This document shows positions 33,119 through 34,288 of a stretch of 64,000 nt of DNA, piece after piece. The notes below the pieces were generated by a model. It searched no databases, was not told the DNA's origin, and saw only the letters and a program-made list of their open reading frames with translations. The position numbers were made by a program, and so were the translations under genes. Numbering within the stretch: the first letter of the stretch is position 1; every line of letters begins with the position of its first letter. The stretch comes from Nocardioides sp. Soil774 (lineage in GTDB: Bacteria; Actinomycetota; Actinomycetes; Propionibacteriales; Nocardioidaceae). The stretch spans positions 311,306 to 375,305 of the forward strand of contig NZ_LMSM01000001.1 in the NCBI RefSeq assembly GCF_001428125.1. The letters are read 5' to 3'.

Positions 33119-33715
33119 GTGAGCGATCGCACCCACCACCGTCCGATGACCCCCGGCGACGGGTTCTTCGCCGAGATCGCGGGTGGCACCGACCCGGCGA
33201 TGCTGCGCGAGGCCGGCGACCTGGCCGCGACCGTGCTGGTCCGCGGGGCGCGGGAGTCCGAGGACCCCGCGCTGGCCGAGCGCGTCGTGCACCTCGCCGA
33301 GAGCGAGGGCCTCGAGACGCTCGCCGAGGTCTGGTCGGGCGCGCCCGCCGACACCCTCGCCGGCAGCCTGTGGCGGCTGTTCCTGCTGCGCTCGTGGGTG
33401 CACGCCGACCCCGAGCGAGTCGCGCGCGAGTACGACGCCGGCCAGCGCCGCGTCGACGTGGCGCGCGTGGTCGCTGGAGTCGCCGACCCGCCAGGCCCCG
33501 ACGAGCTGCGCCGGATGGTCGACGAGGTGCTGCGCGGGATCGCGCGGGGCGACTTCGCGGTCACCCTGTTCCGCGCCGCGGCCTTCGCCCGGATCGTCGC
33601 CGCCGGGCGCGCGGCGCTCGGCCGGTCGTCGCACGACGAGATCACCCGGATGCTCGCGCTGTCGGAGCAGCTGGAGGCGGCCGGTCTGGGGGAAATGCGC
33701 GACGCGCTGGGATGA
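33119..33715 (+). CDS. Conserved actinobacterial protein, function unknown
   Basis: A 198-residue helical protein without signal or membrane segments. It contains MLREAGDLAATVLVRGARESEDP, ETLAEVWSGAPADTLAGSLWRLFLLRSWV and DPERVAREYDAG. I recall similar proteins in many actinobacteria, some misnamed as an RNA polymerase subunit, without a known role. The all-helical repeat-like make-up could serve as a scaffold. The GTG at 33119 is set by the TAGGCT box. It is followed directly by the putative structured RNA. Confidence 0.65.
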   Translation: MSDRTHHRPMTPGDGFFAEIAGGTDPAMLREAGDLAATVLVRGARESEDPALAERVVHLAESEGLETLAEVWSGAPADTLAGSLWRLFLLRSWVHADPERVAREYDAGQRRVDVARVVAGVADPPGPDELRRMVDEVLRGIARGDFAVTLFRAAAFARIVAAGRAALGRSSHDEITRMLALSEQLEAAGLGEMRDALG

Positions 33716-33720
33716 GCCGT

Positions 33721-33726
33721 TAAAAT
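33721..33726 (+). promoter_or_regulatory. -10 box TAAAAT in front of a putative structured RNA
   Basis: TAAAAT in an otherwise GC-rich region, six bases before 33733. By the spacing of the other promoters here, transcription would begin at the first base of the 10-base-pair closing helix. No convincing -35 box is seen. Confidence 0.55.
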
Positions 33727-33732
33727 GGGCCC

Positions 33733-33827
33733 TGCGAGTGCGTCGGGCTGTGGCAGCCCCGGGTCCCAAAATAAGCCGCTACGAGCGGCCACGCGCCGTG
33801 AGGCGCTCCCGGTCCGGCGCACTCGCA
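33733..33827 (+). ncRNA. Putative structured non-coding RNA with four or five stems
   Basis: A 95-base element. A perfect 10-base-pair helix P1 (TGCGAGTGCG at 33733, CGCACTCGCA at 33818) closes three perfect hairpins: GGGCTG/CAGCCC with loop TGG (33745-33759), GCCGCT/AGCGGC with loop ACG (33775-33789), and GCGCC/GGCGC with the GNRA loop GTGA (33793-33806). CGGG at 33760 can also pair with CCCG at 33808, enclosing the last two. An A-rich single strand (CCCAAAATAA) lies between. A TAAAAT box puts the start exactly at P1. It has no open frame and does not match an RNA family I know (not 4.5S, 6S, tmRNA or a riboswitch I recognise). It could act alone or as a leader of the PemK-like gene. Confidence 0.5.
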
Positions 33828-33844
33828 CATCTCTCCGGGGCCTC

Positions 33845-33850
33845 TAGGCT
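33845..33850 (+). promoter_or_regulatory. -10 box TAGGCT of a leaderless transcript (PemK-like)
   Basis: TAGGCT, six bases, ATG at 33857. The PemK-like gene can therefore be transcribed without the RNA element upstream. Confidence 0.6.
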
Positions 33851-33856
33851 CGGGAG

Positions 33857-34288
33857 ATGACGTTGCGCCGCCGGATCGCCGGTCTGTTCTCGGGCTCCAC
33901 CGCCGGTGAGGTCTCCTCGACCTATGCCCCGGAGGTCGACGGCGAGCCCGACCCGGGCGAGGTCGTGTGGGCCTGGGTGCCCTACGAGGACGACCCGAGC
34001 CAGGGCAAGGACCGGCCCGTGCTGGTGCTCGACACCGAGGACGAGGGCTGGACCGGGCTGATGCTGAGCAGCCAGGACCACGACCGAGACGCCGCCGACG
34101 AGGCCCGCCACGGACGCCACTGGATGGACGTCGGCTCCGGTGGCTGGGACCCGCAGGGCCGGCCGAGCGAGGTGCGCCTCGACCGGCTGCTCCACCTGCG
34201 GCGCGACGGCGTACGCCGTGAGGGTGCGGCGCTGGACCCCCGGATCTTCGAGGAGGTCGTCGCCGCGGTGCGCGGGCTCTCCCGTTAG
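33857..34288 (+). CDS. PemK/MazF-like protein
   Basis: A 143-residue protein whose central part (GEVVWAWVPYEDDP, GKDRPVLVLDT, GWTGLMLSSQDHDRD) fits the SH3-like barrel of PemK/MazF (CcdB-fold) proteins, toxins that cut RNA or poison gyrase. An N-terminal segment of about 40 residues and the C-terminal WMDVGSGGWDPQGRPSEVRLDRLLHLRRDGV are as in actinobacterial chromosomal homologues. No small antitoxin gene adjoins it, so a housekeeping role is as likely as a toxin. Its TAG stop forms the first half of the next -10 box. The start is set by the TAGGCT box. Confidence 0.7.
   Translation: MTLRRRIAGLFSGSTAGEVSSTYAPEVDGEPDPGEVVWAWVPYEDDPSQGKDRPVLVLDTEDEGWTGLMLSSQDHDRDAADEARHGRHWMDVGSGGWDPQGRPSEVRLDRLLHLRRDGVRREGAALDPRIFEEVVAAVRGLSR

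Follow-up and report, generated by a model that had tools for sequence, protein, structure and literature searches.

A predicted free-standing RNA gene of about 95 nt, folding as a three-way junction, lies between two protein genes of Nocardioides sp. Soil774 and appears to be one copy of a structured RNA class spread through the Actinomycetes. On balance, we consider that this class is undescribed and trans-acting, probably stress-induced in many lineages and constitutive here; no transcript has been shown here, and the partner and action of the RNA are unidentified. The strongest argument is the class-wide conservation with covariation, rather than the fold of a single sequence.

In the window (the whole stretch of 64,000 nt that was analysed), a gap of 141 bases separates the stop of the open reading frame 33119-33715, which encodes a protein of an all-helical family referred to here as A3, from the PemK-like ATG at 33857 (Table 1). 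An earlier note, made from the sequence alone, had proposed that this gap holds a novel structured RNA transcribed from a promoter of its own, and this proposal is now supported by covariation, by the absence of a matching Rfam family and by the promoter-like boxes of related copies. The perfect 10-bp helix (33733-33742/33818-33827) on which it was based is present, and the TAAAAT box does stand six bases (33727-33732) before the first helix base at 33733. Of its three perfect hairpins, those at 33775-33789 and 33793-33806 (the latter with the GTGA loop) were retained, whereas the first (33745-33759, GGGCT/AGCCC) was given up, because in the comparative data its bases pair with the 3' strand; the closing helix was thus extended to 18 bp, followed by the inner helix P1b. 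Base 33806 of P3 has 33756 as an alternative partner. The 5' and 3' ends of the gene were predicted from the promoter spacing and the helix limits and were not mapped. On the PemK side, a TAGGCT box (33845-33850) stands six bases before the ATG, as in a leaderless-type start, and is spanned by an inverted repeat, CATCTC...GAGATG (in the stretch 33828-33859).

Table 1 Features of the RNA locus and its neighbours (positions in the window)
Feature	Position	Strand	Basis
-10 box TAAAAT, sigma-A type	33721..33726	+	Direct reading
Structured RNA gene (predicted)	33733..33827	+	Fold z -4.15, homologues, covariation
P1, 5' strand	33733..33750	+	18 bp with 33810-33827
P1b, 5' strand (inner helix, mismatch or bulge)	33752..33756	+	Partner 33806-33809
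J1/2, single strand CCCCGGGTCCCAAAATAA	33757..33774	+	CCCGG conservation in the class-wide alignment
P2 hairpin GCCGC-TACGA-GCGGC	33775..33789	+	Compensatory second pair
P3 hairpin, GNRA-type loop GTGA	33793..33806	+	Inner pairs 100% paired
P1b, 3' strand	33806..33809	+	Mutual information, double changes
P1, 3' strand	33810..33827	+	Fold and covariation
Neighbour gene, A3 all-helical protein family	33119..33715	+	No Pfam/NCBIfam match above cut-off
PemK/MazF-like neighbour gene	33857..34288	+	PF02452, E 9.4e-09

The predicted RNA has a minimum free energy of -57.9 kcal/mol, and one of 200 shuffled sequences folded equally well. Fourteen members folded singly were weaker on average (mean z -2.9, range -1.35 to -4.98, mononucleotide shuffles). 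The architecture is a three-way junction composed of P1 with its inner helix P1b, P2, and P3 with a GNRA-type loop. In an alignment of 57 family members, from which one of 58 regular-expression hits (L085:699-795) was excluded as not being the RNA, the core is near-invariant and the closing helix variable, with 10 of 17 P1 pairs changed on both sides. A second alignment of 83 class-wide sequences, whose sources were chosen by us, was fitted to the P1/P2/P3 model and hence leans towards it. It gave 270 double-change cells against 84.5 +/- 9.7 after shuffling, with both-side changes in 16 of the 17 modelled P1 pairs, and the covariation score of 0.346 fell to at most 0.069 when the partners were slid by one column. 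The top three pairs of a mutual-information scan (151 distinct sequences) comprised one known P2 pair and two pairs that were not in the model, and the inner helix P1b was defined from these two. All four P1b pairs show double changes, with 85.6% of cells paired. When P1b was included (30 pairs, 83 sequences), 306 double-change cells were counted against 92.8 +/- 9.6 after shuffling; covariation in relatives, a check which the earlier note had proposed, is therefore strong.

The second pair of P2 changes from C-G to U-A in 16 of the 83 class-wide sequences, with pairing maintained in all of them, and the four inner pairs of P3 are 100% paired. Most other pairs of P2 and P3 are invariant, so that covariation is no test of them. 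The junction strand has the near-invariant consensus CCCCGGGYYCC: CCCGG is found in all 83 sequences and CCCGGG in 81, and the P3 loop is GNGA in 81/83. These figures were counted on the class-wide alignment; sequences gathered by regular expression would partly impose such invariance, and the search models also somewhat favour it.

It is possible that the conserved strand acts by base pairing, i.e. that the RNA is a trans-acting sRNA whose C-rich CCCCGGGYYCC seed pairs with G-rich ribosome-binding sites while the hairpins only stabilise it. C-rich single strands are a usual seed type in Gram-positive bacteria, and J1/2 is unpaired in the comparative model as well as constant in its CCCGG. However, a seed would have no need for constant helices, yet the paired bases of P2 and P3 vary as little as the strand does; moreover, CCCGGG is self-complementary and thus a poor seed. 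Base-pairing action is not excluded, and we regard this alternative as unlikely though worth keeping in play beside our preferred reading, an RNA whose folded core is recognised by a partner.

The comparison with other Nocardioidaceae that had been suggested earlier found homologues in 184 of 198 family genomes and 20 of 26 genera (blastn), and its scope proved too narrow, as the RNA spans the class. A covariance model (R1) matched 213 of 394 class genomes in 69 of 137 genera, and a wider model (R2) matched 218 of 364 genomes in 74 of 130 genera, mostly with one copy per genome. The remaining 146 of these 364 genomes had no R2 match at E<=0.01; thus, either the RNA is not universal or diverged copies were missed. 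The latter may occur, since the searches were built on models of the core. In a phylum sample of 376 genomes, 29 had a match, all within the class. The named carriers in one pattern scan (29 stretches) were mostly Mycolicibacterium and other Mycobacterium, together with Nocardia carnea, Rhodococcus rhodnii and a metagenome bin labelled Rhodobiaceae.

Matches to the core were also seen on two Rhodococcus fascians plasmids, NZ_CP015221.1 (8001-8052) and NZ_CP015237.1, with no annotated feature beneath them. One IMG/VR contig and two fecal records entered as 'Bacteriophage sp.' (unverified) also contain copies; bacterial contamination may account for these.

Promoter-like boxes of two different forms stand before the RNA. 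In the family, TANNNT starts 6-20 nt upstream of 56 of 57 members, the window copy included, against 3.7 expected. Upstream of 40 class loci (from 38 genomes, selected for diversity before the promoters were examined), GGAA[TC]-N17-19-GTT was found in 22, against 0.15-0.25 expected, the lower value coming from mononucleotide shuffling. The same motif occurred in 101 of 16,000 random 100-nt windows of these loci and in none of the 40 windows on the antisense side. A scan of spacings from 10 to 26 gave 16 loci at 18, six at 19, two each at 14 and 15, and none elsewhere. In a wider set the motif preceded 36 of 58 class rows, 24 of the 26 rows that came from the mycobacterial scan and, among second-copy rows, 7 of 8; the last two groups each include one miss resembling a chance regular-expression hit more than an RNA copy. 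Within the family it was rare (2/57 members; 10/87 rows by a wider search), and it was absent before the window copy and before 18 of the 40 class loci. At some class loci the sigma-R-type and sigma-A-type boxes overlap, e.g. GTTAGCCT at locus L119. A longer leader is expected at five loci (L120, L129, L136, L150 and L154), where the first model base follows the GTT of the sigma-R-type motif at a distance of 31-34 nt.

In the accessible part of a published study, the SigR motif is given as GGAAT-N18-19-GTT (PMC9205884). In the window genome itself, the gene of a SigH_actino equivalog (359.5 bits, cut-off 251.55) is next to that of an RsrA (82.8, cut-off 62.5), and GGAAT-N18-GTT is found upstream of its sigR gene. 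Similar motifs are also read by other ECF sigma factors. SigR control of the expression of the RNA in many lineages is an inference from the motif only, and the same holds for the second copy of the window genome.

This second, diverged copy lies at C5:395280-395360 on the minus strand, behind GGAAT-N18-GTT (loci L223 and L257 are this one place). An R2 search at E<=0.1 of 61 family genomes gave a match in 48, eight of which had two; L255 and L256 gave no regular-expression match and stand outside the second-copy count.

The genes around the RNA offer two candidate partners, of which the A3 protein is the better supported. It was found in 114 of the 394 class genomes, 112 of which also have the RNA. 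Outside the family, 77 class genomes encode the protein, and distances were obtained for the 74 of them that had a listed RNA place (one RNA place each). The RNA lies within 500 bp of the A3 gene in 52 of the 74, always at the 3' end of the gene, on the same strand in 43 and on the opposite strand in nine; in the others it lies at 0.5-6 kb (13 genomes), farther away (two) or on another contig (seven). In genus g93 (for example G550 compared with G335, G491, G418 and G442), the orientation of the RNA is flipped while it remains at the 3' end of the A3 gene; recombination between the P1 arms could have produced such a flip, by inference. This proximity in either orientation would suit a two-gene module in which the A3 protein (33119-33715) binds the RNA part. 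Against such a module, the RNA is frequent without the protein (213 of the 394 genomes have the RNA and 114 the protein; families f20 and f5 are among those with the RNA alone), and the adjacency can be explained by shared synteny alone. The protein gave nothing above the cut-offs in Pfam and NCBIfam. Its AlphaFold model is helical (pLDDT 79), and neither a relative nor an RNA-binding fold could be recognised convincingly: the best PDB sequence match had E 0.025, Foldseek found none at E<=0.001, and the best VIA-align hit, at Z 6.6, may for helical bundles reflect a common arrangement only. A dedicated A3 partner is, in our judgement, rather improbable.

The other candidate is the PemK-like toxin gene, whose start lies 29 nt downstream and for which the RNA could be an RNA antitoxin or another RNA regulator. 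Of the 117 family genomes compared, 64 have a PemK relative no more than 500 nt from the RNA, among them 46 of 53 in the genus of the window and 18 of 18 in genus g5, and a further 13, from other genera, have it within 6 kb. In the remaining 40, however, including all 22 compared of g19 and all five of g21, it is more than 6 kb away or on another contig, and the g19 and g21 genomes keep the RNA; the RNA thus does not stay adjacent to the toxin gene, as a dedicated regulator should. In addition, none of the 40 class loci (with home-made gene calls) fell in the PemK neighbour cluster, which consists of 27 loci all in the family, and both the RNA and PemK are preceded by a promoter-like box of their own. 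Regulation of PemK is therefore a very weak candidate for the function of the RNA.

Outside the family the neighbours are of other kinds. At L119, labelled Streptomyces-like by inference from its neighbours, the RNA is flanked by genes for a HelD-type protein and a malic enzyme, and by blastp clustering both neighbours recur at four more loci; at a mycobacterial-like locus the neighbours are WhiB-, EspM- and AccD-like genes. As the neighbours vary in this way (PemK, malic enzyme, AccD-like and others), no single downstream gene accompanies the RNA throughout. A cis element of a neighbouring gene (riboswitch, attenuator or terminator) could be read into its place shortly before the PemK start codon and, in many genomes, close behind the A3 gene. 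Such an element should keep a consistent downstream gene on its own strand, but the neighbours differ among families and nine of the 52 close A3 placements have the RNA on the other strand; moreover, the RNA has its own promoter-like boxes and PemK has the TAGGCT box described above. We see very little room for a cis element. That the locus is a mobile or repeated DNA palindrome instead of an RNA gene, as the second copies, the Rhodococcus plasmids and the flipped orientations might suggest, is scarcely credible against mostly one copy per genome, often syntenic, compensatory changes that keep the pairing and promoter boxes at a fixed distance.

The differing neighbours among families, together with the 43 same-strand and nine opposite-strand placements at the A3 3' end, are the reasons why action in trans is inferred. 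In our preferred reading, a trans-acting RNA of a class shared across the Actinomycetes, P1 would serve as a clamp whose sequence is free to vary, while the invariant core (J1/2, P2 and the P3 loop) would be read by a conserved partner. This partner would most likely be a protein that belongs to the machinery of transcription, translation or RNA decay, both its reading of the core and protein binding being inferred. The level of the RNA would set the activity of the partner: a copy with a sigma-A promoter would give a constant level, and with a sigma-R promoter, thiol oxidation would release sigma-R from RsrA and raise it. A further-reaching version, which is plausible to us without being probable, holds that the class is ancient and undescribed, that its near-invariant junction core serves as the receptor of a central machine of the cell, and that some genomes pair a constant sigma-A copy (that of the window) with a sigma-R copy induced by thiol stress. 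On this further-reaching version, the sigma-R/RsrA response would gain a new effector in the form of a structured RNA. The response to thiol-oxidative stress would then include a structured RNA, and Rfam would gain a new family for which models are ready. That the core hardly varies suggests that the partner matters, and through the promoters of sigma-R type the link can be tested at once in a standard laboratory organism.

No known family was recognised in the Rfam scan, which had also been proposed earlier: with Rfam 15, the RNA of the window reached the gathering score of no family, and the sole match in the window was a tRNA elsewhere. Ten matches in 20 distant class loci did not overlap the RNA, 18 further loci gave no family, and at E<=10 the gaps of the window and of L119 gave noise only. 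An Rfam sRNA, Ms_IGR-5, was matched at L143 3387-3577 on the minus strand, about 260 nt from the RNA copy there. SRP RNA (RF00169) was rejected as an identity, the genome having its own at C6:432375-432464 (61.5 bits), away from the window locus.

The literature on sRNAs of Streptomyces, mycobacteria and corynebacteria, as far as it was available, came near the RNA only with scr2952, and the RNA was not found there as a class. In the accessible passages of one paper, scr2952 is an expression-confirmed sRNA of S. coelicolor, conserved in more than half of the tested Streptomyces and said to be included in Rfam, and these passages state no class-wide family, fold or sigma-R link for it (PMC8388888). 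The scr names refer to the right-flanking gene, according to the part of another paper that was available (PMC3765725); scr2952 would thus adjoin SCO2952, on the assumption that the earlier study used the same naming rule. In similarly partial sources SCO2952 is HelD (PMC8655204) and SCO2951 is malic enzyme (PMC7494193), in agreement with the neighbour types of L119; SCO5261, considered at first as the neighbouring malic enzyme, was dropped for SCO2951. The Streptomyces copy of the RNA may therefore be scr2952, as inferred from position and name without a comparison of sequences. However, scr2952 is reported, in what was available, to be in Rfam, while the L119 gap matches no Rfam family, and this conflict stands.

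Three known systems resemble the RNA in part. 6C RNA (RF01066) is likewise an actinomycete sRNA with C-rich conserved segments, and the available part of its description describes two stem-loops that each contain at least six C (PMC8388888). The window RNA, in contrast, has no RF01066 match and forms a three-way junction with the hairpin loops UACGA and GUGA. Ms1 and the 6S-like RNAs are also free-standing, structured and widespread in Actinobacteria, and Ms1 is about 300 nt long in mycobacteria. For S. coelicolor, the accessible part of one paper gives a length of about 230 nt and a link to a HAD hydrolase gene (PMC9130861). Compared with these RNAs, for which about 160 nt or more would be expected, the window RNA is shorter at about 95 nt, has other annotated neighbours and has no Rfam match. 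The third is the SigR/SigH regulon, for which no structured RNA of this class was found in the portions of the literature available. Its promoter type, GGAAT-N18-19-GTT, precedes the RNA in many lineages, whereas a box of sigma-A type stands before the window copy.
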